Assembly (NCBI GenBank): GCA_030690895.1
Contig: JAUYFQ010000086.1
Coordinates: 1 to 64,000, forward strand
Direction of reading: 5' to 3'
DNA length: 64,000 bases
From: Sulfuricellaceae bacterium
GTDB taxonomy: Bacteria; Pseudomonadota; Gammaproteobacteria; Burkholderiales; Sulfuricellaceae
Shown here: one piece after another, positions 40,786-64,000 of the stretch
Layout of the letters: every line of letters begins with the position of its first letter
How positions within the stretch are numbered: position 1 is the stretch's first letter
Position numbers and translations under genes: made by a program
The notes under the pieces: generated by a model
What the model was told of the DNA's origin: nothing
The model's database searches: none
What the model saw: only the letters and a program-made list of their open reading frames with translations

Positions 40786-41034
40786 TTAATTTTCGTGCCC
40801 GCCGCGCAGCAAGGCGACCACAGCAGAAGCATCGGCACACTCACCGCGCACCTTCTGCCACAATTCCTGATCTTCCAGTTCCAGCAGAGCCTCGAACTCC
40901 TGTTGCTGCAATGCCGTCAGCCCTGCGTAATTCTCGCTTAGAAAACGCGCCAGCACCAGATCAAGTTCCAGCATCCCGCGCCGACAGCGCCAGCGGAGGC
41001 GGTTGAGGACTGCCAAATCAGCGCCCAAGTCCAT
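40786..41034 (-). CDS. sdhE: Succinate dehydrogenase assembly factor SdhE
   Basis: An 82-residue flavinylation factor for succinate dehydrogenase. The key RGMLELD motif (the RGxxE signature that contacts SdhA) is present in [18 protein letters not shown]. The ATG at 41034 is my choice; a longer frame to 41100 reads into hsdM. Its first 17 bases overlap the 3' end of hsdM, which is foreign to the TCA cluster. In related genomes sdhE follows sdhCDAB; here the sdh genes are not upstream and a restriction island stands in their place, so the native promoter may have been lost. Confidence 0.88.
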
Positions 41035-44362: not shown

Positions 44363-44426
44363 GATTTCCCCCTGAATGGTGGCTGACTCATTGTTGTGAG
44401 AATAATATACCCATCAATTTTTTTGT

Positions 44427-46052: not shown

Positions 46053-46064
46053 TCCACCAACCCC

Positions 46065-46538: not shown

Positions 46539-46548
46539 TGCTAGGCAA

Positions 46549-46576
46549 GCCCTTCGACAAGCTCAGGGCGAACAGG
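46549..46576. repeat. REP-like element upstream of the GIY-YIG gene
   Basis: A further copy of the REP core in the 81-base gap between the toxin gene and the GIY-YIG gene, close to the GIY-YIG start codon. Confidence 0.8.
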
Positions 46577-46619
46577 CTGAAATTCGTGTGATCTCATTAC
46601 ACCACCAACCCCTCACCCA

Positions 46620-46955
46620 TCATCCCGCCCTCACCAGCGCCACAACGGCTTCCACGACCTTTAGTTGCGCTTCGGCATGGAGTTCGCCTGCAATACGGCG
46701 AAACAGGCTTTCATGCGCCGTAAAGAGTTTGCCGGGGCGCGCGTAGCTCGCCCGCTGGAGACTGCCGCTGGCAAAATCCCCCTCCGCCAACTCGACTGCG
46801 CGGGGGTCGGCATAGGGGTTGCTGGTAATCTGGCACAGCACCCAGTCTCCGCGCCCGGCATCGGCCAGGATCATGGCGGGGCGCAGCTTCTGGGCGGAAA
46901 GATCGAAAAAGGGGAAAGGCAACAGAATTACTTGACGGCTTGCAAATGCGCCCAT
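46620..46955 (-). CDS. PemK/MazF-type toxin (growth inhibitor)
   Basis: A 111-residue PemK/MazF-like toxin, an mRNA-cleaving ribonuclease in this family. It begins with the RQVILLPFPFFDLSAQKLRP motif (beta strand, then the conserved arginine-proline) and has the CQITSNP segment characteristic of MazF/PemK. The ATG follows a GAGGAG ribosome binding site and overlaps the end of the antitoxin gene by 28 bases, the usual antitoxin-first arrangement. It sits inside the hsd island and may stabilise it. Confidence 0.85.
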   Translation of the reverse strand: MGAFASRQVILLPFPFFDLSAQKLRPAMILADAGRGDWVLCQITSNPYADPRAVELAEGDFASGSLQRASYARPGKLFTAHESLFRRIAGELHAEAQLKVVEAVVALVRAG

Positions 46956-47143
46956 GCCTGCTCCTCTTCATCACGCAACCAATCCACGCCCAGCGAGGAT
47001 TCGCTCAGCCCCAGCCCACAGAGCGTTTCGTCTGTAGGCGCGATAAAGGTCACCAGCACCTGCTGGGGGGAATCCAGCGGCACCGGCTCCGAAAATTTCA
47101 GCATCCCATTGGGCGCTAAAACCGCTTCCAGCGTAGTCATCAT
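46928..47143 (-). CDS. Antitoxin of the PemK/MazF-type pair
   Basis: A 71-residue acidic protein that should neutralise the toxin encoded directly downstream. The N-terminal half forms short beta strands (LEAVLAPNGMLKFSEPV, VLVTFI) like AbrB- or DUF2281-like DNA-binding antitoxins, and the acidic tail (WLRDEEEQAWAHL) is the likely toxin-binding part. The ATG at 47143 has an AGGAGAT site six bases upstream. Position and overlap with the toxin support the call; the family is not fixed by sequence alone. Confidence 0.75.
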   Translation of the reverse strand: MMTTLEAVLAPNGMLKFSEPVPLDSPQQVLVTFIAPTDETLCGLGLSESSLGVDWLRDEEEQAWAHLQAVK

Positions 47144-47211
47144 GCTTGATCTCCTTGTTTCTTGACTGTTTTATTATAGGCTGATTCAGCATCGGCAAAA
47201 TGATTCAAGGC

Positions 47212-47301
47212 TCACGCCACCAACGCCTCATCCATCAACCCGTCGAGCTGATTGCCAAACACCGCCCACACTTTCTGCGCGGTCTTGAGTTCGGCCACCC
47301 C
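47212..47301 (-). pseudogene. Chimeric hsdS/hsdR remnant
   Basis: An out-of-context coding scar of about 30 codons. Its first part (GVAELKTAQK) is the HsdS spacer: 29 bases at 47273-47301 match 45496-45524 in hsdS with one difference. Its second part (KVWAVFGNQLDGLMDEALVA and stop) is the very end of HsdR: the CCAAACACCG...CCACACTTTCTGC text at about 47255-47278 matches 48620-48643. The two meet at the shared TTTCTGC, so it is a fusion scar of a lost hsdS and hsdR pair, in a reading frame unrelated to its neighbours. It overlaps the end of the AAA gene upstream. Confidence 0.75.
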
Positions 47302-47309
47302 CTTATCAT

Positions 47310-48497
47310 TCACCACTCCACCCCCAGCCAGCCCACGCGGTCATCCTTTGGCGGCCAGGTTCCCTCGGCGACCCGCTGGGCATACCAATGGTGCATGGCG
47401 GCATCATCGATGGCGTATTCGCCGCGAGCCGATTTCCACACCATGCTGGGTTGGCGGTTGCGCAGCGCTTCCATGGCTTTTTGCGCCATGGCGCGGGTGA
47501 TGGCTCCATCGGTCTTTTCACTGTAGAAGCGCAAGGCCTCGGCGTCGTAGGGGCGAAAACGCGCGCCCTGCTCCAACATGCGCCAGATCACCGTCTGCTC
47601 CACAGGGCGCAGCGCGAGGAAGTCGCTTTCCATCTGCTGTCGATCTTGTTCCAGACGCTGGTGAGCCAGTTCCACCAATACCGGTTCGAGGTGGCGCTCC
47701 GCGCCCGTGCCGAAGGGGCTGAGGGCTTGCCCCAGGATGTCGATGAAAAACTGCGGGCGGTGTCCCAAGGTCTGAAAGGCGCGAGCCAACAGGGGCTGAT
47801 CCACCGGTGCCAACTCAGGGCGCTGCCGCTCGATCAGGGTAGCCAGGTGAGCCACGAAGTCGTCGCCCAGCAGGGGCAGGTGCTTGATGCTGGAGCCGTA
47901 AAACGGCGCGGCATTGGCGTTAACCAAGCGCAGAAGCTTGTCGCGGTCTGAACCGGACATGACCAGCATCAGGTTGACCTGGCCCGGGCGATTGAGCTGG
48001 TCACGCGCGGATTTCAGCGCCGTCATGGCATTTTCGCCGGCCTCGCTGGTCAGGCTGTGTTGGGCTTCGTCGATGATCAGGGCCACGGGAGCCTTGGCCG
48101 ATTCGTGCAGTGCGCGCAGAGCATCGACGAGGGTTGAGCCGTCGGGATGGCCGATCTTGCTGATGTCGATTTTCAAGCTTCCCGCGATGCTGATGCTTTC
48201 TAGCCCGGCGGCCTTGGCCGCTTTGCTGATAGGATTCAATTGCCCCCGCAGGGCGCGACCGATGGCTTCGGCGATCAGTTCGCCGGGATCGCGCATTGGG
48301 GCAGCCCACAGATCAACATAGATCACGACGATGCCACGCTTTTCCAGTTCGGGCTTGAGGTCGGCCTGCAGAAAGGTCGATTTTCCGGTTCGGCGCGGCG
48401 CGGCGAGAAAAAGGCCGTTGGGGGCATCGTTAAATAGGTTGTTGCCCTGCAGGGCTTCACACATTTCTTCAGCAAGTTGGAGACGGGAAAAGTACAC
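47310..48497 (-). CDS. AAA-family ATPase inserted in the hsd locus
   Basis: A 395-residue ATP-binding protein with Walker A APRRTGKSTF (about residues 34-43) and Walker B in APVALIIDEAQHSL. It is followed by a sensor-like LMLVMSGSDRDKLL segment and a helical C-terminal winged-helix-like region (residues 300-395). It resembles ATPases of the archaeal-type AAA superfamily (ATPase_2/AAA_22) common in accessory regions; function is unknown. The only plausible start is a GTG at 48497. It lies 70 AT-rich bases after hsdR and ends on top of the hsdS/hsdR scar, so it came in by recombination. Confidence 0.75.
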   Translation of the reverse strand: MYFSRLQLAEEMCEALQGNNLFNDAPNGLFLAAPRRTGKSTFLQADLKPELEKRGIVVIYVDLWAAPMRDPGELIAEAIGRALRGQLNPISKAAKAAGLESISIAGSLKIDISKIGHPDGSTLVDALRALHESAKAPVALIIDEAQHSLTSEAGENAMTALKSARDQLNRPGQVNLMLVMSGSDRDKLLRLVNANAAPFYGSSIKHLPLLGDDFVAHLATLIERQRPELAPVDQPLLARAFQTLGHRPQFFIDILGQALSPFGTGAERHLEPVLVELAHQRLEQDRQQMESDFLALRPVEQTVIWRMLEQGARFRPYDAEALRFYSEKTDGAITRAMAQKAMEALRNRQPSMVWKSARGEYAIDDAAMHHWYAQRVAEGTWPPKDDRVGWLGVEW

Positions 48498-48567
48498 AGA
48501 AGTATCTCTAGGTATCGTGATTTAGATACAGTATATAATATAAGATATTGTTCGATACAGATAATAA

Positions 48568-51347
48568 TTACGCGACCAATTCCTCATTCATCTCATCCAT
48601 CAGCCCATCAATCTGCTCACCAAACACCGTCCACACTTTCTGCAAACCGCCCTTGCCCGCCAGCTCCGCGTAATCAAAATCCTCACGGCTGATGCTGCAA
48701 CTGCTGGCAATATGCTCTTTCATCAGCCGCAGCCATTCAGTTTGCTCGGGCGTAAAGGCGGTGGCGCGCTGGGCGTTGTGGCGGAAGATCCATTCCTGAA
48801 AGCGCTTATCGACTTGCTCACTGAAGGGTTTGAGTTCGGTTTCCAGCCCCAGTGCAAAGCGCACCAATGACACCAGATCGGTGAGCTGGCGTTTGCTGTC
48901 AGTGCCTTTCACCTGACCGACTTGTATGCGGGCATAGGCGCTCCACAGGCGCTCGGTGGTCAGCATCAGCGGCGGGCGACTGAGGGCTTCATGCAGCTCC
49001 TCGATCATGTCGAAAGTGAGCGTGCGGCGCTGGTAGGATTGCTGGTAAAAGAAGCTGAGCGCGGCAATTTCGTCTTTGTGCTGGGAGATGTAGTTGGTAA
49101 AGCTTTCGATCACCGTTTTTGCCTGCGTTTCGGCTTGCTCGCTGAAGCCGGAGAAGGTGACTTGATCGAGGTTGATGTGGTCGATGAGCTGCTCACGTTC
49201 GCGGCGGGCGGCTTCGATTTCGTCGCGCAGGGCCGGTTGGTCGAAGGGGGCGCAGGCGACGGCGACGCGTTCAGCGCGGGCCGCTTCGATTTCTTCGGGC
49301 AATAATGTTTCTTCGTTGCGGGTGATGCCCTTTTCCTTGGCGGTGGCCAGCGCAGCGGCAATGATGGCATCGGGGTTGATCGCTGCGATTAAACTTTTGC
49401 CCAGCTCTGCCACGGGGATGCCGCCGGAAATTTTTTCAATGCGGGCTTGGGCTTTATCGTCGAGCTGCTTACCCAGACGCACTAAACGATTGGCGAGCGA
49501 GAGCACGGTGTCGTCGTCGCGGTGGCCGATGGCTACGCCTTGCAGCAGGTCTTTGAGCGCCACGCCGGGCTTTTTCTCCAGCGGGCGGCTTTCTGTTTTG
49601 AGGGATTTTTCCACGCCCACGGCGTCAATCAGCACAAAGCGGGTTTTGGCGCCGTCGGCACTGTTGCTGACCCGCTTCAGGCTGTCGCCATCGAGCGAAC
49701 GCACGCCACGGCCTTTCATCTGCTCGTAGTAGCCCTTGCTGCGCACATCGCGCATGAACAGTAGCACTTCCAGCGGCTTCACATCGGTGCCGGTGGCGAT
49801 CATGTCTACGGTGACGGCAATGCGTGGGTTGTAGTCGTTGCGAAAGCTGGACAGGATGCTGTCGGTGTCTTCTTCAGCGCGGTAGGTGACCTTTTTACAG
49901 AAGGCGTTACCTTGGCCGTAAACCTCACGCAGGATGTTGATGATGTCGTCGGCGTGGCTGTCGGTCTTGGCGAAGATGAGGGTCTTGGGTACTTCTTTGC
50001 GCGCCGGGAAAATCTGCGTTTCCACAGCGGTTTTCATGGCCTGGATGACCTGGCGAATTTGGCTGACGTTGACCACGGAGCGGTCGAGCTCTTTGCCTGT
50101 GTAGGCGGTGTCCTCTTCGGTTTCGCTCCAGCGCTTTTTGCGGGTTTGCCGGTCGCGGTGGTCGACCCATTCTTTGGCTTTGAGCTCAGCGCCCTTCTGG
50201 GTGATTTCGGTTTCGATCTCATACACGTCGTAACCGACGTTGACGCCATCGGCCACGGATTGCTCGAGGTGTATTCGGCGACGATGTTTTCGTTGAAGAA
50301 GCCGAAAGTACGTTTGTCGGGCGTGGCGGTGAGGCCGATCAGGCTGGCATCGTAGTAATCCAGAACCTGCTTCCACAGGTTGTAGATGCTGCGGTGGCAT
50401 TCATCGATGATGATGAAGTCGAAGGTTTCCACCGGCACGGCCGGGTTGTAGCGCACGAACTTTTCCTGCTTGGTGGTCTGCTGGAGTTCGTTAAGCGACA
50501 CGTCTTCGGCGGACTCGTCGATAGGCTCGCCACTCAGGATGGAATACATGCGCTGGATGGTGCTGATGCATACCTGTGAATGCGGGTCGATGCTGGGCGA
50601 GGCCAGCCGCTGCACGTTGTATAGCTCAGTGAACTTGCGGGCATCATCGGGCGGCGTGTAGGCCATGAATTCCTGATGTGCCTGCTTGCCGAGGTTGCGA
50701 GTATCGACCAGAAACAAAATGCGGCGGGCAGCCCCGAATTTCAGCAGACGGTACACCGAGGTAATGGCGGTGAAGGTTTTGCCCGCGCCGGTAGCCATGT
50801 GCACCAAAGCGCGTGGCTTGTTCATTCCCAGCGATTTTTCCAGCCCGGTGACGGCGCTGATCTGGCAGTCGCGCAGATTGCGTTCGGGTAAGGCTGGCAT
50901 CTGCTCGGCCAGACGGCGGCGCAGGGTGTCGGGTTGCGACTGCCATTGCGCCAGCGTTTCGGGTTTGAAGAAGTGGAAGATTTCGCGTGAGCGTGGTGCC
51001 GGGTCGGCATTGTCGGTAAAGCGGATGATCTGGCCGGTGGCTTCAAACAGGAAACGCAGCGGGGTGTTGTCCTTACGCCATTTGAGATTGGCGGTGGCAT
51101 AGCGCTCGGTTTGATTCTCGGTAACGGTGAGATTTTCACCCGCACTATCTTTTTTGGCTTCGATCACGCCTACCGCATTGCGATTGACGAATAACACGTA
51201 ATCGGCCGGGCCGCTGTCGGTGGGGTATTCGCGCACGGCCACGCCCATCCCTGCCGCCAGATTGAGCTGCTTCATATCCTGAATGACCCAGCCAGCCTGC
51301 TCCAGCTTTTGGTCAATCTGCTGGCGTGCTTTGGTTTCTGGTGTCAT
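48568..51347 (-). pseudogene. hsdR: Type I restriction endonuclease subunit HsdR, frameshifted
   Basis: Two overlapping frames together encode a full HsdR of about 927 residues. The first (51347 down to about 50270) has the nuclease motif region (DYVLFVNRNAVGVIEAKKDS), Walker A MATGAGKTF, DEAD-like IIDECHRSIYN and GLTATP. It then breaks after NENIVAEYT into unrelated sequence. The second frame resumes with LEQSVADGVNVGYDVYEIE and has the helicase C-terminal motifs (IAVTVDMIATGTDV, YYEQMKGRGVR). The break lies near 50268-50271, where the text ACACCTCGAG appears one C short of ACACCCTCGAG. Restriction is probably off unless the base is a sequencing error or phase variation. Confidence 0.85.
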
Positions 51348-51562: not shown

Positions 51563-54500
51563 TTACACCGTCCGCTGACCGGTCGCTCCACGTTGGTGTA
51601 GATATTCCTTGACCTGATGCAACTGCCCGAGCAACCAGCCGCCCTTCTGCCGCTTGTTGAGTGACTGTAGCTCAAGCACTGCACGTTCAACACTGATTCG
51701 CTCAGCGATCAGGTCGCGGTATATCTGGTCAGCTGTTTTCCGTCGCTTGACGGCGTCCCCGGCGTCCAGCAAAGCTTCCACGCCCTCCAGCAACTTCAGC
51801 ATCCACCCGCTCTGACGCACGATACTCATTTTTCCACGCACGACTTCCAGCGCCAGTTCGAGGTTTGATTCAATCACCTTGAGTTCGGCCTGAAAACTTT
51901 CGCGCTGCATGGCGGCTGACTGGCGCGCCAGCAGGAGTGTATCGCGCACATGCTCGGCGCACAGCAGACCGAACTCCTGAAAAGCCGCCAACTCGCGCAG
52001 TCCCTGCTCCATAGTTCCGATTTTCCCGGAACGCAACTTGTCACAGGCCTTGTAGCACGTATCCCAGGCCTGCCAGCGATAGACAAAATCCAGGCCAGTA
52101 CCCTTGATATTCTGGATGCCCATCACCCGGTTCAATATCCCTGGCGGCGTCTCGCTGCGGATAATATCGACGATGGCATCGCCGCTGGCATAAAAATCAT
52201 GGACGACCACAATCCGGCGCTTGAACCAGGTATGCAGGAGTTGGTGCAATGCTTGGTCCAAACGTTTCTGGTCAGATGGTCTGACACAAAACTCGCGAAG
52301 CGAGCCTGCGTCCCTCAGATCAAAACCATCGCCTTTTACGTTTGCCCCCTCTCCCGCTTGCGGGGGAGGGTTGTCTCGCCCGTGTGAGCAGCTTTGCTGC
52401 CACTCGCGGCGGGGACACTCCTTGCGGGTGGGGAGGGGGTTGCCTGGGAGAGGGTTAGGAGAGAGGGAAACGGGCATTTCGCCATGCCCGTTGATATGGG
52501 CAATCTGGTCGAAGAAAGCCTGATATTCGCCCAGTTCCTCATTCATGCGCTGCACGGCGGCGGCGATATCTGCGGCATATTCCTGCAAACCGCTTGCGGC
52601 TAGGCTCTCTGACAAGGACTGGGGTTGCTGCCACAGATCCAGCAAAGTGGCTGTATCGGCCAGCCCCAAGCCTTGCAGCATGGCTTGCAAGCGGCGGCGC
52701 ACAGTCTCCTCCGAGATAGCCACCCGGTAACGCCCGGCGAATGCCTGCAGTACCGCTTGTGGCGAGGTAGCATCACCCGCTTCGCTTTCCGGCCAGAGGG
52801 TCAATTGCTGGGCGAACTTGCTCCAGGCTTCTTCGATATAGCCCATCAATCCCGGCAGATTGGAGCCAATCAGAAAATGCCGGTCGGCACTGATGTCGTT
52901 CACCAGAATACCGGCAAAAACACGCGAGCGCGCCACCCGGTCGGCACGGTTATTGACCACCGTGCTAATCCACACCCCTGGCTCGGCATCCGGGTTTTGC
53001 CGGTCAAAACCCATTCGCACCCAATTACCCAGACAGCCAAAACGCTCGTTGGCTGACATGCCGTTGACAAACACCAAACGACGCCCCTGGATAGCTGCTT
53101 CAGGATAGGTCTTCAGCACCCCCAGATCGGGCACCACGCGATCGGCCATTTCCTTCAGGGCAAAATCCGGGGCAATGCCCAATTCCTGTCCCATGCGCAT
53201 GACCAGAGCGATGTTGTAGGGATGTTCATCGTAGGGAAAGCGCTGTAACACATCCGGCGTCAGCATCCCCGCTTCCAGCCAGCCTACCCGTTCCATTCGT
53301 GTCTCGTTTTCCCTTGCCGCCTCGCGCAGGATGGGCAGCATTTGTTCTTCGCTGGTAATCAGGATGGAGCGGCGCGGGATGAAATTGGTCATCACCTCAG
53401 GAATATTGATCCCCGCCGGCCCCTGCAAATCTTCATGGTCTGGGAAGGTATTGGTGATCGTGGAAATATCGTCACGCACCCAGTGCCGTTGCAGGATGCG
53501 CACGTAGGAAGGGGTGAGCGCCATGCACTCCCACAGGAAAATATCCGCGCCCAAGCCCTCGGCGTGCCGCATCACGTCGAATTGTTCCCAGATGGTCGCC
53601 TTGTCGTAGGGGCGAAACAAAAACATCTCGCGCATCTTGCCGTAGGGGTCGGCATATAGAAACATGGCCTCGCAGCCTGTGGTTTTCGATACCAGACTGT
53701 AGCCCAGCGCATTCAGCACGGCCGCCTTGATACGCTCGGTGCCGGACTTGCCGCGTGTTCCCCAGCCGCCGAGCACCAGCGGCAAATTCTCGCGCGTCTG
53801 GCGGATGCGCCGGTTGGCGTAGAGATGCTTGCCAACGAAATAGGCCAGCACCAGTGCTGTGAACACGGCAAGATCGTTAAGAGAGTTCTGGTAAACGGAG
53901 AAAAAATACTCCTCCATGCGCTGCCAGTTTTCACCCAGCGGCACGACCAGGCCAGATGCGAAAAACCGTGTCACCGCAGGGTCTGGCTGCGCCTGACCCG
54001 TGGCTGCCGCATGGGGATAAAAACGCACCTCGAAGCCGAGCTCGCGCAAGGCATGGACATAGCCGGATGGCATGGCCTGGCTGCTCTCCTGCCAGTTGCG
54101 CAGGCGCGCCAGTTGCGCGAAGCGCGTGGCCAGCAACCAGCGCGACTTGAGCTGTGCGACGATATTGCGCGGCGCTGCGACCTCCGTCACACCTTCACTG
54201 CTATACAGACGCACCTTGCCGCCCGGCACATCCAGCGTCGAAATAACATCATCGAGCAGAGGCAGGTAGGGCCGCCAGCCCGCTTCGCCCGACAGGAACA
54301 GCGGTTCGCCCGGAACCTTGGTTTCCGCCAGTTCGGCCAAAATACCGGAGGGCGCGCGCAGATTGCCGGAAAAAATCCGCCCCACTGTGTGACGAAAGGC
54401 CTGGCGTTTATCGGGAGAGGGATTGCGAAATTCGTGCAACACCCGCCAAAGACGCATACCGAACTGCTGGCCGCGCATCATCCGGGAACGCCACCGCCCT

Positions 54501-55975
54501 TGCGCCATATCCAGGCCAAAATCGTCCTGCGCCAGGATAGCCAGCACCCGCCCGATCAAATCAGGATCAGCATCGGACAGCAGTTTTTTCGGAATACTGC
54601 GATGCCTGCCGGGTTTCTGGTCTTGCAGCCAGTTGCCAAGCCGTTCCAGCAATTGGCGCGCCGCTGGATCCGACTGACACCATAGGCGCTCGTCAGCTTG
54701 CGCAGCCCATCTCCGCACGGCGATACTACTGGCATTGCCGTGCAAGACAGACAGCGCAGAGCGCATGGCTTGCTGCCAGCGCGCCTGTTGGCCAGGCTCG
54801 ATCAGGGTGGCGCTGGCATCCACGCAGACCTGGAAGGCCACTCGCAGCACGAAAGCATCCTGCTCTTGCTGCAACAATTTCTGCATCTGGCTGAGAAGGC
54901 CGTCGAACAGGCCAGCGCGTTCCAGCAGTTTTGGAAGCGCCAGCAAGGCCGCAGCCCGCACCTGAGGCGAAGCATCTTCCATGCTTGATTGTGCAAACCA
55001 GCGCAGCGCCATCGCCTCATCCACTTCATGCAGCACCACAGGCAGCGCCTGCCGGACAAAGGGGCTGGGGTCGGCCAACACGGCCGGAATCAGCTCAGCC
55101 AGATCAGGCGCGCGCACAAGCGCTTTCCCCAACAGCAGCACCGCATGTCGTCGCAAAAACAGGTCGTCGCCTTCCTGCGGTTCTGTCAGTCGTTTGCGCA
55201 GGGCGGTGCGCAGAAAGACCAGCGAGAGGGATTGCAGCAAATTCAGCGCCTCGCATTGCACCCATACTTGCTGACGGCTCTCCAGTGCCGAACGGTAGAT
55301 GAATTGCAATGTTCCTTCAGCCACTGCCGTTTCCTGCATGGTCTGCGGCAGCGCTTGCAAGCCAGTAGCCAAACAGCGAAAGGCTTCAATGACCACCCGG
55401 TTATCGCCATCATGTATCAGCAACGGCCGGGTCACGCGCTCAATCTCCAGTTTCTGCCAAAGCGCGGCCTGAGCGCCGGGTTCGCCCGCCAGCTGGATCA
55501 GATGCGCAGAAAGCGCGCCAAGACGGCCGAGGCAAAAGGAGAGGATGCGCTCGTGCAGGGTATGCCGCCGCATATAACGATCCGCAACCGCATCCATGCC
55601 GAACCAGCGTTCAAAGGCGCGACTATCTCCCGCAAGCTCGCGACTGCTGCGCCCCATCGTTTTGGCGTAATCAAGAATATGAAGGCGGCGTTCATCCTCG
55701 CTGACCGAACGGGCAAAGTGTTGCGTGAATTCTGCGTGCCGCTGCCGAAGGCTGGCCAACGCCTCGCCCTCTAGCTGAATTTCCCGCTGAATAAACTGGA
55801 TCAGGCGCAAAGCTGGCAAGTCGACGGCCAAGGTATCCGGCCGATGAGAGCGAATACGCCCATTTTCCTCGGCAACAAATTTTTGCAACAATGGCGCCAG
55901 CAGCTTTTCCTCAGCCTTTCGCCAAGCTGGATGGATGCCCAGAGAGAGCAGTTTGCGAGCTTCCTGCTCAGTCAT
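51563..55975 (-). CDS. HEAT-like/membrane/PgsB (CapB)-type Mur-ligase fusion protein
   Basis: A 1,470-residue protein. Residues ~1-690 are alanine/leucine-rich helical repeats of HEAT type. A membrane helix follows (about 695-720, NDLAVFTALVLAYFVGKHLY), then a PgsB/CapB-like Mur-ligase domain with the P-loop GGWGTRGKSGTER (about 735-747), TNTFPDHEDLQGPAGINI and VNNRADRVARSRVF. PgsB builds poly-gamma-glutamate by ATP-dependent amide ligation; the membrane-anchored ligase matches that family, but the HEAT-like extension is unusual. A dispersed repeat is inserted in frame (residues ~1160-1232). It is the last gene of the operon and overlaps the outer-membrane gene by eight bases. No PgsC or PgsA is visible. 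Confidence 0.75.
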   Translation of the reverse strand: MTEQEARKLLSLGIHPAWRKAEEKLLAPLLQKFVAEENGRIRSHRPDTLAVDLPALRLIQFIQREIQLEGEALASLRQRHAEFTQHFARSVSEDERRLHILDYAKTMGRSSRELAGDSRAFERWFGMDAVADRYMRRHTLHERILSFCLGRLGALSAHLIQLAGEPGAQAALWQKLEIERVTRPLLIHDGDNRVVIEAFRCLATGLQALPQTMQETAVAEGTLQFIYRSALESRQQVWVQCEALNLLQSLSLVFLRTALRKRLTEPQEGDDLFLRRHAVLLLGKALVRAPDLAELIPAVLADPSPFVRQALPVVLHEVDEAMALRWFAQSSMEDASPQVRAAALLALPKLLERAGLFDGLLSQMQKLLQQEQDAFVLRVAFQVCVDASATLIEPGQQARWQQAMRSALSVLHGNASSIAVRRWAAQADERLWCQSDPAARQLLERLGNWLQDQKPGRHRSIPKKLLSDADPDLIGRVLAILAQDDFGLDMAQGRWRSRMMRGQQFGMRLWRVLHEFRNPSPDKRQAFRHTVGRIFSGNLRAPSGILAELAETKVPGEPLFLSGEAGWRPYLPLLDDVISTLDVPGGKVRLYSSEGVTEVAAPRNIVAQLKSRWLLATRFAQLARLRNWQESSQAMPSGYVHALRELGFEVRFYPHAAATGQAQPDPAVTRFFASGLVVPLGENWQRMEEYFFSVYQNSLNDLAVFTALVLAYFVGKHLYANRRIRQTRENLPLVLGGWGTRGKSGTERIKAAVLNALGYSLVSKTTGCEAMFLYADPYGKMREMFLFRPYDKATIWEQFDVMRHAEGLGADIFLWECMALTPSYVRILQRHWVRDDISTITNTFPDHEDLQGPAGINIPEVMTNFIPRRSILITSEEQMLPILREAARENETRMERVGWLEAGMLTPDVLQRFPYDEHPYNIALVMRMGQELGIAPDFALKEMADRVVPDLGVLKTYPEAAIQGRRLVFVNGMSANERFGCLGNWVRMGFDRQNPDAEPGVWISTVVNNRADRVARSRVFAGILVNDISADRHFLIGSNLPGLMGYIEEAWSKFAQQLTLWPESEAGDATSPQAVLQAFAGRYRVAISEETVRRRLQAMLQGLGLADTATLLDLWQQPQSLSESLAASGLQEYAADIAAAVQRMNEELGEYQAFFDQIAHINGHGEMPVSLSPNPLPGNPLPTRKECPRREWQQSCSHGRDNPPPQAGEGANVKGDGFDLRDAGSLREFCVRPSDQKRLDQALHQLLHTWFKRRIVVVHDFYASGDAIVDIIRSETPPGILNRVMGIQNIKGTGLDFVYRWQAWDTCYKACDKLRSGKIGTMEQGLRELAAFQEFGLLCAEHVRDTLLLARQSAAMQRESFQAELKVIESNLELALEVVRGKMSIVRQSGWMLKLLEGVEALLDAGDAVKRRKTADQIYRDLIAERISVERAVLELQSLNKRQKGGWLLGQLHQVKEYLHQRGATGQRTV
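52277..52495. repeat. Dispersed repeat inserted in frame in the PgsB-like gene
   Basis: About 220 bases of repeat text with pyrimidine/purine-rich blocks and hairpins, bounded by CTCGCGAAGCGAGCCTGCGT and GGTTAGGAGAGAGGGAAACG. Those two blocks also bracket the shorter copy in the neighbouring giant gene (60676-60758). It is translated as HGEMPVSLSPNPLPG and following low-complexity sequence that has no place in the enzyme fold. Confidence 0.85.
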
Positions 55976-58900
55976 CCTGGATACCTTTCACGATATTGTT
56001 CGGCTCGGAAGGAATATCGCGCGTGCGCAGGTCACGGAAATCCACTTCATCTGGACGAAAATCCCGATAGCGGCGTCCCTTGCTGTCATGCCAGGAGAAG
56101 TACAGCATCCCGGTGGTTTCTTTGGTATCGGAGTCGTGGCGCAACTGAAAACCAGCCTCGAGCCGGTTTTGCTGGCTGTTCCACTGGTTCCAGGCCGCGT
56201 CCAGCAACCAGGTCCGCTGGTTGCTGGCTTGCGCGCGCTGATCATCGGCGAAATAGTGATGAACGCCATAACTCGCGTCCAGTTGCAGATTACCAAGCAG
56301 TTGCTGCCAGCCCGCCTTGAATCCCAGATAGTCCGGGTGAGCGATGCTGAAATTTTCGTTGGTTTTCAGCGCAGCGCCCGCATGCCACACTGTATCCAGC
56401 CAAGGGCGGTGATACAGCGTATCCGCCACTTGCAAGCCATGTCGATGCGTGGATTTGTAAGAAGTAAATATATCCTGGTCGACGCTCGAAGGTACGTAGT
56501 TTCCAATCGAATCCATGCTGAAATTGTAGACAAACAGGGTGGCCCGTGGCACATGCCAGGTTTTCGGATCGAGGGCGCGCTTTTGCTTCACCGATCCTTT
56601 CAGGAATGCCGACCACTCATTTTCCCCTCCCATCAAACCGCCATCCGGATTTTGGAGGTAGAGCCCCGCATCCAGCATGAAATTCAGCGTAGTCCATGCC
56701 GGTCGATGCTCGATGGATTCCAGCAATGCCAACGTCGGCCCGCCCGCCTCGCGCAGACGCCCCAGCATTTCGGAGCGGTAATAGGTACGCTGGTTTTCGT
56801 CGTAATACCGGTGGGTGGCGCTCAATTGCAGGAAGTCTTCAGCCGGCGTGCTTTCCTCGCCTTCCGGATCGCGGCGGCGCGCCAGTTGCGCGGTATAGCC
56901 CCAGCTACCGTCTTCCTGACCGCCGAGCTGAAAATCATCCTGCAGCGACACCTGGCGCGCCGGTTCCGCAACCTCCACCCTGGCGTACGCCTGCGGCGCC
57001 GGTTCCGGCGTCACATCGACAACGCGCGGCAAAACCGGGGCAACCCCCGCCGCCATCACCCGCTGATGCACCCGAAACAGCGCCTCGGTACGCTGGCCAG
57101 AAGGGGCCAACAGCAGTTCCTCGAAGTCGGCGGCAACCTGTTGGTAGCGCGATTCCACTTTACCGTCTCGCCATTCATCGATACGCAACCAGGCAGGCCC
57201 GGCTACAGCCAGACGCAGGGGTTCCTTCCGGGTTGCCACATGCCAGGGTCGCTCGATCGCGCTCATCGGCACAGACGGCCCGCGCTCGACCATGCGCGCG
57301 CGCAGGAACTGGTCAGCCAGCGGATTTGTTATCCCCACTCTGAGCACATGATCGCCCGCCGGGATATTCAAGCTGATTTTTTGTGTTGGCTTGTCGGCAG
57401 ATAACGGCACCGCAACCGAAGCAGCGCCATCCAGTTGATAGAAAGCCTTGAGCGGCAATGGCGCGAATAAGGCCAGTTCTTCCTGCGACAAGTGCAATTC
57501 GACAGTAGCGGGACGCAGATTGCGCAGCGTGAACAACAGTCGCCCATTGCTGGAAACCATTTGATCAGCTGCGCCAATACTGCTCATCAGCGCCTTGCGC
57601 GCCCGCAGTGACGGGCTTTCTGGCTGCCAGCCAGCAATCTCGATATAGCGCTGCCCCGCGCTATCCTGAATGCCGACAGCCGCCTGCCACATAACATCGC
57701 GTGACAGACGCGACAACAGCGACTGCAATCCGGCATGGGCCGGATAACGTGCGCCAAGCGCCTCCGCCTCGACCAAGGCGCGCTCGCGCATGGCTGGATT
57801 CTGTTCGGACCACCACAGCAATAAGGTCATGCGGCGCAACGCATCGCGCTCGTTCTGCCCCGGATGCATGGCCAGCGCAGCCACTACATCCCCGGCAGCC
57901 AGACTGGCCGCCTCGGGCCATGCCATGCCGGACAAGCGCTCGCCGCCTGGTGGCAGCGCTGGCTCCTGCCGTGATAAGGCCAAGTTGCTGCGATTCAACC
58001 CATCCGTTTGCAACGGGGGGGCTAGAGGAACCACCATCTCGGGGCGACGAGCCAGAACGCGCAACAGCACGGGCAAGCGCCCGGCATCCAGCTCAAGTTC
58101 GTGGATGCCGGGACCAAAATCGAATTCACCGCTCACTTTGCGCCCTGCTTTGAGGTCGCTACGACCGGCCAACTCCAGACCTGACACAGGCAGATTATTA
58201 CTGATCGGCAACAAGCGCATACCGCTTGACTCTTTCATGCGCAGCCAGCCATCCACGGCTTCCGAAGCTGAATCAGCATGAACCGGTCGGGCTTCAATCC
58301 GCAGCCGCACAGGGCCCATCAGCCGCAAGCGCACCGGCTTGTCAGCAGTCGCCAGGTAGGCGCGCGAATAGGCATCGCGGTCTATGCTGTAAAGGGTCTC
58401 ACTGCCAGCAAAGTCTGTCACCAGATGCGCTTCTTCCCGCCAGACAAACGGGCCTGGGTGGCCGGAATGCCAGCGCAGCCAGGCATCCACATCATCATTG
58501 TCCAGTTGTGGTGACAGATGGAAACGTTGCGCCAAGGCATTTCCGCTATCCAGTGCAGCCAGCCAAACCTGCCCCTGACTGCCACCCGCGTCAAAATATT
58601 GTCGCGCCACCTCGGTCCTGCCTTGCGACATGGCGGCCAGACCCTGCCGCAAAGACTGCTGCTCGGTCGATGTTTCGGACAAGGCAAGTTGCTGATAAAC
58701 CGTCCACCAGCCCAACTGATAGGCAGAACGCAGCAGATGTTCGCGCGGCTGCTCAGCTGGCGGCAGCGGCAGGCCAACGGCCATGGCCAGTTCATGCTCG
58801 CTGTTGTCCGCCAGCGACTCACTCAGACGGCGCAGATGCAGCGGGTTCAATTGCTGCACGCTCATTGCCGACCACAGCGAGACTTGGCTGTCGGTTTCCC

Positions 58901-61793
58901 CTGCCTCGCGATAATAGGCATCCAAGCGCTCGCTTGCGCGCCGTCGGACATCGTCTTCCCCGGCAGTTAGCGCCAGGCTGCGCAATTGCTGCTCGGCCAG
59001 ATAATTTTCACCCAGTTGCAGCAACGCCTCCGTCTGCGCCAGCATGGCTTCCTCGCGCAGCGGGAGGGGGGCATGTCTGGCCAGTTCAGCCCAGGATTCC
59101 AGCGCAGACAGCCATCTGCCTTCGCCGCCTGCGGCCAGAGCCTCCGACTGCAGGCGCGCCTGCTGCGCCGCATTCAGCGCTGACGCCCCGGAAGGCGGCG
59201 CCTGCAACATCCCGACCGGCGTGGAAAACACCTTGTGCTGGCTGCGCATGGCGCGCACCAGAGGCAACCAATGATTCCCCTGCTCCTGCGCGCTGTTCTG
59301 TATCTCGTTTGCGGTAGCCGTTTGCAGGGTGCGGATAAACGCGGCCAGCGCCTGGCTCGAATCGCCAGTTCTGGCCGCCATCTCCAGATATTCCCCCTCG
59401 CTCAGGGCAAAAGGCTTGGCCGCACGGTATTGCAGGGCGACATGCAGGGGCGGAGCATCCGGCGCGCTACGCCAGACACGCACTTCACGCACCGAAGAGG
59501 GCAAAGGAATTTCCATCAGGCGGGCGTGCGCCAATCTGCCCGGCACTCGCCGCGCGGCAAAGGGGCCGGCGCTGGTAGCAGCAAGCGCCGGGCCAAATTG
59601 TTGCGCCAGTATTTCCAGCGCAGCATCTCCCTGAGCCGGAGCATATTCGCTATCCGGCAATTCTTGCCCCGCCAGCGCATGCATGCGCATGGGTTTGGCA
59701 GCATCAAATTGCAGGAAAAACTCCGCCTCTACAGCCTCCGGCGCATCCACGACTACGCGCAGGAGTGAAGGCTCGACGCGTGTCGGGAGCATATACCGGT
59801 GGTAGCCGGGTTTCACGCGCTCGATGGAATGCTGCGGAGCCACCCCCTCCAGCCGTATCTCCACGCGACGGTTCAATTGTCGTCCGCTGGCGCTATCGTT
59901 GCTGGCCAGGGGATGCCGTTCGCCTTTACCCAGAGCATGAAGAATGGCAGGAGAGATTCCGCTTCGCGCCAGAAAGCCGGCAACGGCCTGGGCACGGCGT
60001 TCGGAAAGCTGCTGGTTATAGGCATCTGATGCGTGACTATCGGTATGGCCGATAACCTGGACACGCAAAGGACTGCGCGATCGAATCAGAGCAACCGCTT
60101 CTTCCAGCAGGTTCTGGTAACGGGGTTTTAGCGCGGCTTTATCCGTATCGAACAGGACGTCCGCAGGCAGAGTCAGTTTCAGGCTGGCGCCCTCTGGCTG
60201 GCTGTCTATTGGCGCCCTCTCGGTTTTCAGCGGCACTTCAGTGAAATATCCGCCGGGAATGCGATCGAGCAATGCCTGCAAGTGCTGTTCGCCCGCCACA
60301 ATTCCCCGGCCTTGCTCGCCGAGGGAATGCAAATCACGCGGGATGAAACGGGCAAAATATTGCCCCTCGGCAGTCAGATTCTCCTGCGGCAGCACGTCCC
60401 GGTAAAAGGTGTGATACCCCAATAGCTCGTTGGCCACGGTTTGTACCGCTGGATAATCCGGGTTCCACTGCGCGCTATCCTGCATCAACATGGCGCCCAA
60501 CAAGCCCCCTTCTCGCCTTGAATTATCGCGTACAAGGCGTAGCGCGGCGGCTTCCTGTTCGGTCGGAGTGAGCGTGCGGTCCTGAACGGCACGCGCCAGT
60601 TCAGGCGCGCTGGCCAGCCAGGTGGACATGCGCAATTGCAATGGCGTAGCAGGTTGGATTTTCTGGTCTTTAACGTGAGCCTCGCGAAGCGAGCCTGCGT
60701 CCCTCTCTCCCTCTGGGAGAGAGTTAGGAGAGAGGGAAACGGGCGTGGCTTCGCCATGCCAGTTTGGGATTGGCTGCCCAAGCTGCCCGGAAAGCGCCAG
60801 ACGAAACGGCACTTCCTGTTCGCGCGCCTGCTGTGCTGTCAGTTTGGGTTCGTTCAATGCCGGAAACAGATAATCCGTCTGCTCCTGAAGCAGCAAGCGA
60901 GCCGCCAACGGAGCCGTGCTATCCAGGCGGAGCAGATGCTCGCCGGGCGGGATTTCCAGGTAGCCAACCTCGCTGCGCCCCATGACGCGCATTTGCCCAT
61001 CGACCAGGACGGGGTACGCCGATTCGACGGAGGTCTCGAATGCCACGTCTGGCAGGGGGTGATCATCAATCCAGGCATGAACGCGGTAGGTCTGAACCAG
61101 TCCACTCTCATTCACGGGATAGGCCAAGCGATTTTCCAGCGCATAGCGCGCTGGCCCCTTGACCCTCGCTTCTATCGGCTGGCGGGGTACAAACTTCCAG
61201 TAAGTTTGTGCAGCAGCCTCGTCGGCGCGGCGCATCTGTACCGAATCGCCGCTCAGGGCGATCACTTCACGATAGGGCGCCAGTTCGCCAAGCGGCTCAT
61301 GTCGCGAAATAAACAACGCCACTTCAAGCGCCGAAGCGGATTGGCGTGGACGGCTGATACGAGCCAAGTAGGAGACCGATGAACGCATGCGGCTCAGCAT
61401 GTCATGCCGATTATCGGAAAGCGCCACCGGCAGGCGTTGATACAGGCCACTGCCGAGAGAGAAATCCATATCCAGATCGGCTGCGGCCAGCGTGCCATCC
61501 GCTCGCCAGACGCGCACCTGCTCACCGCTTGGAACGCGCAGGATAATCGATGCGCCCGGTTCAAGACGCACAGAATGCAAACCAGGATCGCGTTGGTATA
61601 CCGGTTTCGCCCCTTTGACCCATTGCGGAGAGTGTTCGACATTATCCCAGCGCAATGGCAAGGCATAAGGCCGTAGCATGCGTACCTGCACTTCATCCAG
61701 AGCCGCTTCCGTCTGCAAGGAAAGCGTTGCGCTCAGCACAGCCAGAACCAAGGGGCGAAGCCGTGCGTTAAACTTGCGGGAGGCGCGCATCAT
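55968..61793 (-). CDS. Giant outer-membrane protein with OmpA-like domain and C-terminal beta-barrel
   Basis: A 1,941-residue exported protein. The signal peptide is residues 1-30 (PLVLAVLSATLSLQTEA). It then has beta-rich domains, a repeat-derived insert (about 350-380), an OmpA C-terminal peptidoglycan-binding domain (about 540-655: LPADVLFDTDKAALKP ... QVIGHTDSHASDAYNQQLSERRAQAV), a long helical, TPR-like region (about 870-1,130) and a C-terminal stretch of alternating aromatic strands (about 1,635-1,941) resembling an outer-membrane barrel. The design recalls BcsC/PgaA-type export channels. Start ATG at 61793 has a GGAGA site and overlaps the lipoprotein stop (ATGA); a TTG at 61805 is the longer alternative. 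I infer export of the PgsB product; that is untested. Confidence 0.7.
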   Translation of the reverse strand: MMRASRKFNARLRPLVLAVLSATLSLQTEAALDEVQVRMLRPYALPLRWDNVEHSPQWVKGAKPVYQRDPGLHSVRLEPGASIILRVPSGEQVRVWRADGTLAAADLDMDFSLGSGLYQRLPVALSDNRHDMLSRMRSSVSYLARISRPRQSASALEVALFISRHEPLGELAPYREVIALSGDSVQMRRADEAAAQTYWKFVPRQPIEARVKGPARYALENRLAYPVNESGLVQTYRVHAWIDDHPLPDVAFETSVESAYPVLVDGQMRVMGRSEVGYLEIPPGEHLLRLDSTAPLAARLLLQEQTDYLFPALNEPKLTAQQAREQEVPFRLALSGQLGQPIPNWHGEATPVSLSPNSLPEGERDAGSLREAHVKDQKIQPATPLQLRMSTWLASAPELARAVQDRTLTPTEQEAAALRLVRDNSRREGGLLGAMLMQDSAQWNPDYPAVQTVANELLGYHTFYRDVLPQENLTAEGQYFARFIPRDLHSLGEQGRGIVAGEQHLQALLDRIPGGYFTEVPLKTERAPIDSQPEGASLKLTLPADVLFDTDKAALKPRYQNLLEEAVALIRSRSPLRVQVIGHTDSHASDAYNQQLSERRAQAVAGFLARSGISPAILHALGKGERHPLASNDSASGRQLNRRVEIRLEGVAPQHSIERVKPGYHRYMLPTRVEPSLLRVVVDAPEAVEAEFFLQFDAAKPMRMHALAGQELPDSEYAPAQGDAALEILAQQFGPALAATSAGPFAARRVPGRLAHARLMEIPLPSSVREVRVWRSAPDAPPLHVALQYRAAKPFALSEGEYLEMAARTGDSSQALAAFIRTLQTATANEIQNSAQEQGNHWLPLVRAMRSQHKVFSTPVGMLQAPPSGASALNAAQQARLQSEALAAGGEGRWLSALESWAELARHAPLPLREEAMLAQTEALLQLGENYLAEQQLRSLALTAGEDDVRRRASERLDAYYREAGETDSQVSLWSAMSVQQLNPLHLRRLSESLADNSEHELAMAVGLPLPPAEQPREHLLRSAYQLGWWTVYQQLALSETSTEQQSLRQGLAAMSQGRTEVARQYFDAGGSQGQVWLAALDSGNALAQRFHLSPQLDNDDVDAWLRWHSGHPGPFVWREEAHLVTDFAGSETLYSIDRDAYSRAYLATADKPVRLRLMGPVRLRIEARPVHADSASEAVDGWLRMKESSGMRLLPISNNLPVSGLELAGRSDLKAGRKVSGEFDFGPGIHELELDAGRLPVLLRVLARRPEMVVPLAPPLQTDGLNRSNLALSRQEPALPPGGERLSGMAWPEAASLAAGDVVAALAMHPGQNERDALRRMTLLLWWSEQNPAMRERALVEAEALGARYPAHAGLQSLLSRLSRDVMWQAAVGIQDSAGQRYIEIAGWQPESPSLRARKALMSSIGAADQMVSSNGRLLFTLRNLRPATVELHLSQEELALFAPLPLKAFYQLDGAASVAVPLSADKPTQKISLNIPAGDHVLRVGITNPLADQFLRARMVERGPSVPMSAIERPWHVATRKEPLRLAVAGPAWLRIDEWRDGKVESRYQQVAADFEELLLAPSGQRTEALFRVHQRVMAAGVAPVLPRVVDVTPEPAPQAYARVEVAEPARQVSLQDDFQLGGQEDGSWGYTAQLARRRDPEGEESTPAEDFLQLSATHRYYDENQRTYYRSEMLGRLREAGGPTLALLESIEHRPAWTTLNFMLDAGLYLQNPDGGLMGGENEWSAFLKGSVKQKRALDPKTWHVPRATLFVYNFSMDSIGNYVPSSVDQDIFTSYKSTHRHGLQVADTLYHRPWLDTVWHAGAALKTNENFSIAHPDYLGFKAGWQQLLGNLQLDASYGVHHYFADDQRAQASNQRTWLLDAAWNQWNSQQNRLEAGFQLRHDSDTKETTGMLYFSWHDSKGRRYRDFRPDEVDFRDLRTRDIPSEPNNIVKGIQDD
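60676..60758. repeat. Dispersed repeat inserted in frame in the giant outer-membrane gene
   Basis: A short version of the repeat found in the PgsB-like gene, starting with CTCGCGAAGCGAGCCTGCGT and ending with a TTAGGAGAGAGGGAAACGGG block. It contains a CCCTCTCCC/GGGAGAGAG hairpin and is translated as SLSPNSLPEGERDAGSLRE between unrelated domain sequence. Confidence 0.85.
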
Positions 61794-62677
61794 TTCTCCA
61801 GACAACGCAGCAATCTGGCGCGCCCGGTCTGGTCGTTCAGAATGGACAAACGGCTTGGCGCGCTCATTTCGATATGCACGAAACCGGCGTGTCCCAAGGC
61901 GCGCAATGCACTGCCGCTACTATTGGTGGTGGCGCCAAGCTCGTGGATTTCAGTTGGATAAATGCGCACTTCACCCAATTCTGCGCGCTTCAGACACCCC
62001 CCTGTTTCCAGCACGGCGGGTGTTTGCGTTCTGCTGCCTGAGCTAATCACCATTTCGGCGCTGGCCCCACTTTCGCTGCGCCGCTTTTCCTGCGCAAAGC
62101 CATGCAACTGCACCAGTTTTCCTGCGCCAAACCGCCGCGCAAAGGCTCGGCTAAATGCCAGAAAGTAGGTGGCTTTCAAATGGGCCATATCCGCATCAAC
62201 CTTCATGCCATCGAGCTCATATTGGCGCGGCACGGTATTCCAGGCCGCCGCGCGAAAATCGCCTTCAGCCAGCAAATGCAGCAGTATCTCGCGCGTGTTC
62301 TCGTCCTTGAAGCTGTGCGGCGCCTGCAAGGCAGTGGTAGAGACTGATTTTGGAAAGAACGCAAAGAATCCACGCCCCTGTCTGGCGTTCAAACTTTCAC
62401 GAATCACCAGCAACGGGCGTCCTCCATGTTCGGTCTCCATCATTTCAAAACCAAGCTGCCGCCAGCCGTGCCGCGCCGCAGCATCGTTGCATTGATCGAA
62501 GCAACGCTGGAAAAGCGCTTCAGCCTGCTCCACTTCGCGCGCGGCGGGGGCAATATATGCACCGTCGCGGCTGGCTGCTCCGAGCAGTTTGGCCAAGTTA
62601 TCGGCGCTTGCCGCCTGGCAGCCTGTTGCGGCAACGATCATCGCCATCATGACGCCCTTATTCCTGTATTTGCACAT
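61790..62677 (-). CDS. Putative lipoprotein of the PgsB-like envelope operon
   Basis: A 295-residue exported protein. The N-terminus MCKYRNKGVMMAMIVAATGC looks like a short type II signal peptide with lipidated cysteine near residue 20. I chose the ATG at 62677, which has an AGGAATT site, over a longer frame to 62902 that runs through the upstream gene in another frame. The mature protein contains four or more further cysteines (for instance LFQRCFDQCND) and no domain that I recognise. Its start overlaps the upstream gene by 20 bases and its stop overlaps the giant outer-membrane gene, so it is a fixed member of the operon. Function unknown. Confidence 0.65.
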   Translation of the reverse strand: MCKYRNKGVMMAMIVAATGCQAASADNLAKLLGAASRDGAYIAPAAREVEQAEALFQRCFDQCNDAAARHGWRQLGFEMMETEHGGRPLLVIRESLNARQGRGFFAFFPKSVSTTALQAPHSFKDENTREILLHLLAEGDFRAAAWNTVPRQYELDGMKVDADMAHLKATYFLAFSRAFARRFGAGKLVQLHGFAQEKRRSESGASAEMVISSGSRTQTPAVLETGGCLKRAELGEVRIYPTEIHELGATTNSSGSALRALGHAGFVHIEMSAPSRLSILNDQTGRARLLRCLEK

Positions 62678-64000
62678 GACGCAATTCCTGTTCAAACACC
62701 AGTTTGCGCTCCGCCGCCAGTCCCGGCACGATACGCGAGAGAAGCAAATAAGCGCCCGGCCCACTTTCCAGTTTGACGTGTAAAGGGTATTTCCCAGACG
62801 GCAAATCCTGCGCCAAGGGAATAAAGAAGGCTTGCCCCTGATCGCTGGCATTGCGCCGGTTTGCCGCAACGCGGGATCCCGCCTGCATTTCCGGTCGCAC
62901 ATCGAAACGGCGGCGGGTAAAACTCCATGCGGTCATGGGGCCGACAATCCGGTCGCGCGGCGCTTCCAGCCAGACACTGAGTACCGAGCGGCCGGTCTGA
63001 CCTTGCGGGGTATAAAGCCGCATTCCCAGGGTTTCTTCGCAACTGGAGCCATGTTCATATTCAAAACGCAGGGAGCCGTTCTCAAAGCGGTTCGCCAGGC
63101 GTTTTAACAAACTGCCGTCCCTCGGCGCTGTGTGATTCAGATAAAATGCCACCCCTGCCTCACCTTCAATACGGACTCGGTGACGACCGGCGCGCAGCGC
63201 GGGTAGCTCAATCTCGCCATCGGCGCCAGCCACCCGCCCCTGGTAATGCAATTGCTCATCCAGAAATACCTTCACATCGAACGGTGCACTACTCTGGCGG
63301 AAGTACGCCAGGCTGGGCCGCACGTTTTCAACACCTCGCGGAGCCTTCAATGTCAGCAACACCGCCTGTCCGGCAACAATCGGCTGATAAGTCGCGGGGA
63401 GCGTGTCTTCGCGCAATGGCCCCACTTCCTCCACCGGAGTAAACAGGGTACGCCCCAGCCAGGCGCCTTGCGGGTGGAAATCCTGCCACTGGTAGCGCCC
63501 GGCGAGCATATCCGGGTTATCTACAGGCGGCCTGAATTGTGTTGCCAACAAGATGGAGCGATTGCTCATCACCAAGGCCTGAAAATCTCTGGGTTTCAAT
63601 GGGAACCAGGCAACCTGCCGCTCAAGGGTATCCTCCGCCATATAGGCATCCTCAGGCACGCGGCTTTCGCGCACCAGTCCCCAGGGGCGGGTATAGCCTG
63701 CCAACAGGACAGGTCTGTCGGAAGAGAGGCGGATAGAGGTCACTTCGGCGGGCAGGGAAAAATAATAACTGGATGGATCCGTCACGCGCATGCTCAGGGC
63801 ATCGGACTGGAGGCGATCATAAGAAGACACGGGGGGTGATGCCAGAATCGACCCTTCGCGCACGATATGGCCGTGCCGGTTGAGTAATTGATAGCTGACC
63901 CAAGCCGGGTTGTCTTCAGCCGCCTCGCCGGGAAGCCGCGCTTGGCGGATATCCATCCGGAACGGAGTTGGGTCGTCACCCGCATGATCCACCGTGAATT
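62658..64000 (-). CDS. Partial exported-type protein at the window edge
   Basis: The C-terminal ~447 residues of a protein whose start lies beyond the right edge; the frame is open to position 64000. It is rich in beta strands and polar loops, with one cysteine and no predicted membrane helix in the visible part. Segments such as VLLAGYTRPWGL and SGKYPLHVKLESGPGAY resemble the beta-sandwich parts of the giant outer-membrane protein encoded downstream (compare GAGS-type RVPSGEQVRVW), so the two may share repeated domains. Presumably periplasmic or surface-exposed. The family is not recognised. Confidence 0.6.
   Translation of the reverse strand, partial: FTVDHAGDDPTPFRMDIRQARLPGEAAEDNPAWVSYQLLNRHGHIVREGSILASPPVSSYDRLQSDALSMRVTDPSSYYFSLPAEVTSIRLSSDRPVLLAGYTRPWGLVRESRVPEDAYMAEDTLERQVAWFPLKPRDFQALVMSNRSILLATQFRPPVDNPDMLAGRYQWQDFHPQGAWLGRTLFTPVEEVGPLREDTLPATYQPIVAGQAVLLTLKAPRGVENVRPSLAYFRQSSAPFDVKVFLDEQLHYQGRVAGADGEIELPALRAGRHRVRIEGEAGVAFYLNHTAPRDGSLLKRLANRFENGSLRFEYEHGSSCEETLGMRLYTPQGQTGRSVLSVWLEAPRDRIVGPMTAWSFTRRRFDVRPEMQAGSRVAANRRNASDQGQAFFIPLAQDLPSGKYPLHVKLESGPGAYLLLSRIVPGLAAERKLVFEQELRHVQIQE

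Follow-up and report, generated by a model that had tools for sequence, protein, structure and literature searches.

The closest described relatives of the operon reported here are the PgsBCA/CapBCA genes of Bacillus. According to a survey of capsules, polyglutamate systems need CapB and CapC, with CapA as an accessory, and diderms need an extra protein; the polyglutamate model of that survey was built on the Bacillus operon (PMC5542703). An ordinary CapB-CapC-CapA operon has been described in Cloacimonadota (PMC13082233), and Francisella carries capBC, yet poly-D-glutamate was not found there (PMC3081320), which calls for caution about the product. In open-licence papers we found no component assigned to the passage of polyglutamate through the Gram-negative outer membrane. 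Among polysaccharides, cellulose, poly-N-acetylglucosamine (PNAG), alginate and Pel are secreted by the synthase-dependent systems BcsABZC, PgaABCD, AlgKEL and PelBC. Here we analysed a 64,000-base stretch of DNA (hereafter the window, bases 1-64000 of the 92,815-base contig C88) from a Sulfuricellaceae draft genome (186 contigs, 97.9% complete, 6.4% contaminated), and found at its right-hand end an operon that is probably a PgsBC-type machine for the synthesis and secretion of polyglutamate, or of a closely related gamma-glutamyl polyamide, in a Gram-negative envelope.

Because transcription of these minus-strand genes runs leftward, the operon starts beyond the right edge of the window, and its right-hand part was read from contig bases 60001-80000 (L007). 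In order of transcription, it encodes a CHASE2 histidine kinase, a receiver, a PgsC relative, an 828-residue protein, a hydrolase, an outer-membrane protein and the PgsB fusion, and from pgsC through pgsB each gene shares a few bases with the next (Table 1). A sequence-only reading of the window had proposed such an overlapping operon with a further beta-rich protein upstream, and both proposals hold, the latter being the 828-residue protein, which is cut by the window edge. The same reading missed PgsC, since only the last four genes of the operon are visible in the window; PgsC lies 1.1 kb past the edge, behind the kinase/receiver pair. By homology, counterparts of CapB and CapC are thus encoded in the same operon, and the accessory CapA/PgsA is absent from it.

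Compared with PgsBCA/CapBCA, with which it shares the PgsB motifs and the PgsC/CapC membrane partner in one operon, the locus differs in that the ligase has a 700-residue helical N-terminus and a C-terminal extension, PgsC has a tandem CapC part and carries two degenerate hydrolase-like domains, CapA is lacking, and a predicted outer-membrane barrel and large periplasmic proteins are added. Stand-alone PgsB-PgsC clusters (G286, G386, G465) share the ligase core and PgsC, but there the ligase has about 400 residues, PgsC is short and followed by a membrane-anchored protein of 380-393 residues, and no neighbouring gene reaches the size of the outer-membrane protein.

For the ligase, residues 708-1044 matched TIGR04012, the PgsB family (E 6.8e-60, 202.8 bits), just behind a hydrophobic helix (about 702-720) that is followed by positive residues, in agreement with the PgsB-like Mur-ligase domain behind a membrane helix proposed earlier. 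The core spans about 725-1050, the motif GIQNIKGTG follows at 1286-1294, and a C-terminal extension runs to residue 1470. In an alignment of nine fused ligases with three stand-alone PgsB from other genomes of the class, all 12 sequences share GTRGK[ST], KT[TS]G, EQ, ECMxL, TN..DH, GP, VNxRxDR..RS and GxxNIxxxG. The core therefore keeps the P-loop and the other motif residues that are invariant in ordinary PgsB, which bears on a point that the sequence-only reading had raised, whether the active site is complete. The last two motifs are separated by about 245 residues in the window's protein versus roughly 50 in stand-alone PgsB, and part of this difference is due to an inserted repeat. Fused ligases are 39-65% identical to the window's ligase, and in a tree of ligase cores they group together on a fully supported, very long branch from the three stand-alone PgsB. 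The N-terminus of about 700 residues is helical; of the 690-residue HEAT-like region described before, only residues of about 264-391 have HEAT support, from the family profile, which matched designed HEAT-type repeats (E 1.4e-8), and the HEAT_2 match in the N-terminus stayed below the Pfam gathering score. A sequence search of solved structures with the ligase or the hydrolase returned nothing specific except HEAT repeats.

The PgsC relative matched CapC (PF14102) over two stretches (E 3.3e-40, 137.6 bits against a gathering score of 27), and its tandem CapC halves show weak internal homology (E 4e-4). Furthermore, its C-terminal half contains two copies of the hydrolase domain encoded in this same operon, without the histidines of the intact enzyme: the hydrolase matched copy 1 with E 7.2e-10 and copy 2 with E 7.2e-6, and the two copies matched each other with E 4.4e-22. 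We read these appendages, from their sequence, as dead hydrolase copies that may have been retained to hold the polymer. As had been noted for the pgsA partner, no protein of the operon carries a PGA_cap domain, and PGA_cap had no match anywhere in the carriers G161, G241, G588, G506, G663 and Crenothrix. Two PGA_cap proteins are encoded elsewhere in the source genome (C37, C100); because control genomes, E. coli among them, have this domain too, we do not tie them to the operon.

The intact hydrolase had no match in Pfam or NCBIfam, and in the test for PF05908 neither P0003 nor P0009 matched any Pfam family with an E value of 1 or less. Seven orthologues share, among other aligned residues, H117, D121, H188 and E266, which are candidate ligands or base of the enzyme. 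H117 and H188 lie just after or at strand ends and E266 on the last strand, an arrangement that we take to fit carboxypeptidase-type enzymes. The AlphaFold model (pLDDT 87.1, pTM 0.86) aligned best in VIA-align with N-formylglutamate amidohydrolase-type structures (2odf, Z 13.8; 2q7s, Z 12.1) and with the poly-gamma-glutamate hydrolases PghP (3a9l, Z 12.2 over 172 residues, root-mean-square deviation 3.8), YndL with a polyglutamate fragment (5onj, Z 12.0) and the phage PM1 enzyme (21dc, Z 11.8), so that three of the five top matches are solved poly-gamma-glutamate hydrolases, tied with N-formylglutamate amidohydrolase. By Foldseek E value, too, N-formylglutamate amidohydrolase and metallopeptidases came first, at modest TM-scores. 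The operon protein thus shares with PghP/YndL and N-formylglutamate amidohydrolase the fold and plausible zinc/base positions, but differs from PghP/YndL in lacking PF05908, in an identity of only about 10-14%, and in being exported and encoded beside the synthase. PghP itself is a zinc enzyme akin to carboxypeptidase A (PMC4497714). The modelled fold points to a gamma-glutamyl substrate without proving it. A lipoprotein, which this gene had been taken to encode, was rejected in view of the hydrolase fold and a weak lipobox, and the product is more probably an exported hydrolase with a zinc-peptidase fold; in the Crenothrix orthologue, the N-terminus resembles an ordinary signal peptide, as judged by eye.

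The outer-membrane protein comprises a signal peptide, a beta-rich N-terminal part, an OmpA domain (residues 551-646, E 2.7e-20), a TPR-like helical middle, beta domains and the barrel. The TPR assignment is weak, with matches in two orthologues only. We modelled the last 626 residues with AlphaFold, nine relatives included, and the C-terminal end was predicted with high confidence as 14 antiparallel strands, which bears out the barrel suspected by the sequence-only reading. In VIA-align the barrel matched CymA (Z 19.4), OmpG (Z 18.6), PelB (Z 15.8) and BcsC (Z 14.1); CymA and OmpG are 14-strand passive channels, and PelB and BcsC are polymer exporters. A viral fold library gave nothing useful. 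The size once estimated at about 1,940 residues is close to the 1945 found, whereas the peptidoglycan anchor then described beside the barrel is lineage-specific: a scan of five orthologues recognised no anchor in four of them, and the fifth (L039:2-4849) has a SPOR domain (residues 378-449) roughly at the place of OmpA in the window's protein. OmpA was accordingly rejected as a core feature, and, with OmpA missing in relatives and SPOR in one of them, peptidoglycan binding appears to be optional and the barrel to be the conserved part. The similar place of SPOR and OmpA suggests, at the level of sequence, an independent gain of peptidoglycan-binding domains. In Crenothrix the gene is split in two. 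Comparisons of the 828-residue protein with the outer-membrane protein, and searches for internal repeats in the latter, gave only insignificant matches, and the 828-residue protein had no family match.

Next to these individual features stands the conservation of the whole arrangement. A full-length fused ligase is present in Crenothrix sp. D3 (L005) and a partial one in a Nitrosomonas genome (L006); full-length fused ligases were also found in 5 further genomes of a class sample of 369, and in 6 of 398 genomes of the phylum sample, 5 of these 6 belonging to one family (5 of 61 genomes there). The order PgsC, 828-residue type, hydrolase, outer-membrane protein and PgsB is the same in the window, L005, L021, L022, L023, L025 and L035. 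These seven, which come from diverse Proteobacteria, are all the loci whose length allows the full order to be read. At L024, L037 and L039 the outer-membrane protein is kept beside PgsB, and wherever the contig extends far enough (L022, L035, L056, L057 and L058) the operon is preceded by a kinase, a receiver or both. Chance falls far short of explaining an order conserved across such divergent genomes, which speaks for a single machine.

We hypothesize that the PgsB-type ligase, with its long helical N-terminus as a scaffold, would add amino-acid residues to the chain at the cytoplasmic face using ATP, and that the tandem-CapC PgsC would be the inner-membrane partner that moves the chain across the inner membrane. 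In the periplasm, the chain might be guided by the anchored 828-residue protein, the degenerate domains of PgsC and the periplasmic part of the outer-membrane protein, while the intact hydrolase may trim, release or clear polymer, like AlgL, BcsZ or PgaB in polysaccharide systems. The large outer-membrane protein, with its TPR-like/beta periplasmic part and 14-strand barrel, would then pass the polymer through the outer membrane, and the CHASE2 kinase and stand-alone receiver could control the machine. The polymer, its direction of travel, the activity of the hydrolase and the membrane side of each soluble domain are the parts of this model that we infer, polyglutamate being suggested by PgsB/PgsC homology and the modelled hydrolase fold. 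With synthase-dependent polysaccharide secretion the operon shares its logic, from synthase, inner-membrane partner and periplasmic hydrolase to a tentative TPR-like part and the predicted barrel, but an amide ligase replaces the glycosyltransferase, the barrel has 14 strands and no sequence relation was recognised. On balance we lean towards a trans-envelope polyamide secretion machine, a PgsB-based analogue of the systems that secrete cellulose, PNAG, Pel and alginate, which would have its own outer-membrane channel, a PgsC with two dead hydrolase copies handling the polymer, and an island-borne passage between proteobacterial classes. The BcsC-like export of an amide polymer proposed by the sequence-only reading is strengthened by gene order, motifs, predicted barrel, hydrolase fold and a PgsC homologue; its absent PgsC, its lipoprotein and the anchor as a core feature did not hold up.

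Several observations weigh against synthesis and secretion of polyglutamate. The ligase falls short of the NCBI equivalog cut-off of TIGR04012 (222.7 bits), as does its Crenothrix orthologue (195 bits), and PgsC scores 66.8 for TIGR04011 against an equivalog cut-off of 96.45; by its sequence the ligase is a divergent PgsB relative rather than an equivalog, and because both scores are below the cut-offs the polymer made may be something other than plain polyglutamate. The ligase combines one hydrophobic helix with the lack of a signal peptide, so that its 700-residue N-terminus may face either side of the membrane. The hydrolase is without a Pfam family, and its superfamily fold serves many substrates. 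The best matches of the barrel are passive channels, and its 14 strands compare with 16 in BcsC and PgaA. Finally, in this genome the pgsC start codon is replaced by a repeat, and this copy may work poorly.

The low equivalog scores also fit an alternative in which the same layout makes a different gamma-amide polymer or conjugate, with another amino acid, a mixed chain or glutamyl tails on an envelope component. The long branch of the fused ligases and the presence of N-formylglutamate amidohydrolase among the best hydrolase folds favour this alternative too, but the retention of the positions invariant in stand-alone PgsB and the three poly-gamma-glutamate hydrolases among the top five folds speak against it, and we regard it as unlikely, though a serious competitor. 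That the ligase instead decorates peptidoglycan or another envelope molecule, with the barrel protein as anchor or sensor, would account for the OmpA and SPOR domains in two outer-membrane proteins; given that anchors are absent from most of the other outer-membrane proteins, that the conserved part is the barrel and that every contig of sufficient length also encodes PgsC, which partners a polymer synthase, such a role seems very improbable. Uptake and re-use of polyglutamate, with import through the barrel, digestion by the periplasmic hydrolase and some other role for the ligase, is favoured by the passive channels CymA and OmpG as best barrel matches and by the hydrolase in the operon, but is the least credible alternative of all: the gene order resembles synthase-dependent export, uptake would have no use for PgsC and a synthase ligase whose P-loop is intact, and among the operon's products we recognised neither a TonB plug nor an importer for the inner membrane.

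For a polymer secretion machine of the PgsBC type, the operon supplies a concrete candidate channel, a set of periplasmic partners and a hydrolase, with named relatives in Crenothrix and a Nitrosomonas genome, and makes the outer-membrane passage of polyglutamate directly testable. If true, the synthase-dependent secretion layout extends from sugars to amide polymers. We found no description of the fused-ligase arrangement in the open-licence literature, which bears on the earlier caveat that similar operons might already be described as a different pathway.

We found the operon in none of 99 further genomes that share the genus, family or order of the source. In the source contig, 30.8 kb (contig 41008-71846) separate sdhB from the gltA side (window up to 41007), whereas in the same-genus genome G002 the two are only 256 bases apart. 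In G005, also of this genus, the place is taken up by about 8 kb of different DNA, and it accordingly looks like an insertion hotspot. From this comparison of sequences, the operon is on a 31-kb mobile island between sdhB and gltA. Furthermore, the ligase cores of this genome and of G588, which belongs to another class, share 82% identity and the sdhB genes only 61%, which fits transfer. Contamination was rejected as far as testable, the contig's sdhB being 94% identical to that of a same-genus genome. The island also holds a type I restriction system (window 41018-51347).

Table 1. Features of the operon and of the adjoining restriction region. Window and contig share the same numbering.
Feature	Position	Strand	Evidence or remark
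CHASE2 histidine kinase, 904 residues	contig 68907-71621	minus	CHASE2 E 4e-12
Stand-alone receiver, 138 residues	contig 68490-68906	minus	
PgsC relative, 1043 residues	contig 65141-68272 or slightly further	minus	CapC PF14102
Beta-rich protein, 828 residues	contig 62658-65144 (in window 62658-64000)	minus	N-terminal hydrophobic anchor
Predicted exported zinc-peptidase-fold hydrolase	61790-62677 (end approximate)	minus	alignment, model, fold matches
Outer-membrane protein, 1945 residues from TTG	55968-61805	minus	OmpA match, barrel model; first ATG 61793
Predicted 14-strand beta-barrel and short tail	55971-56906	minus	AlphaFold model m9fa8fb02c1b8, residues 315-626 of 626 modelled
PgsB-type ligase fusion, 1470 residues	51563-55975	minus	TIGR04012
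In-frame dispersed repeat in ligase gene, residues 1165-1233	52277-52483	minus	no counterpart in orthologues
hsdM	window 41018-42574		
Small partner	window 42490-43191		
AAA_21 ATPase	window 43184-44362		within type I restriction region
hsdS	window 44427-46052		
AAA ATPase	window 47310-48497		within type I restriction region
hsdR, apparently frameshift-split	window 50034-51347 and 48568-50400		

The copy in this genome has been altered by repeats. The repeat inserted in the ligase does not belong to the machine, and pieces resembling it occur at 11 further sites of the genome; residues of about 352-388 of the outer-membrane protein (window 60642-60752) are also repeat-derived, by sequence resemblance. 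At contig 68404-68474 lies an inverted-repeat element, beside which the usual pgsC start is missing; one search pattern found no exact dispersed copies of it. The pgsC frame stays open, and translation would have to start either from GTG 68272, with the first helix lost, or from a rare codon. With repeats in the operon and the pgsC start lost, function is less sure in this strain than in the relatives. The dispersed repeat family (also in C34, C125, C134 and others) inserts in frame, adding up to about 69 residues and leaving genes unbroken.

Elsewhere, the ordinary PgsB-PgsC pairs of three other genomes (L026, L027 and L041) are followed by membrane-anchored proteins of 380-393 residues with similar starts, and L026 has cyanophycinase-like and isoaspartyl peptidase-like genes next door, as judged by eye. 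On C100 (L059:7-6582), the PGA_cap domain forms the C-terminus of a 2191-residue protein that consists further of RimK/ATP-grasp and two Mur-ligase middle stretches with C-terminal domains; it resembles fused cyanophycin-synthetase-type ligases with CapA, and neighbouring genes encode a YheC/D ATP-grasp protein and a member of the beta-lactamase family.

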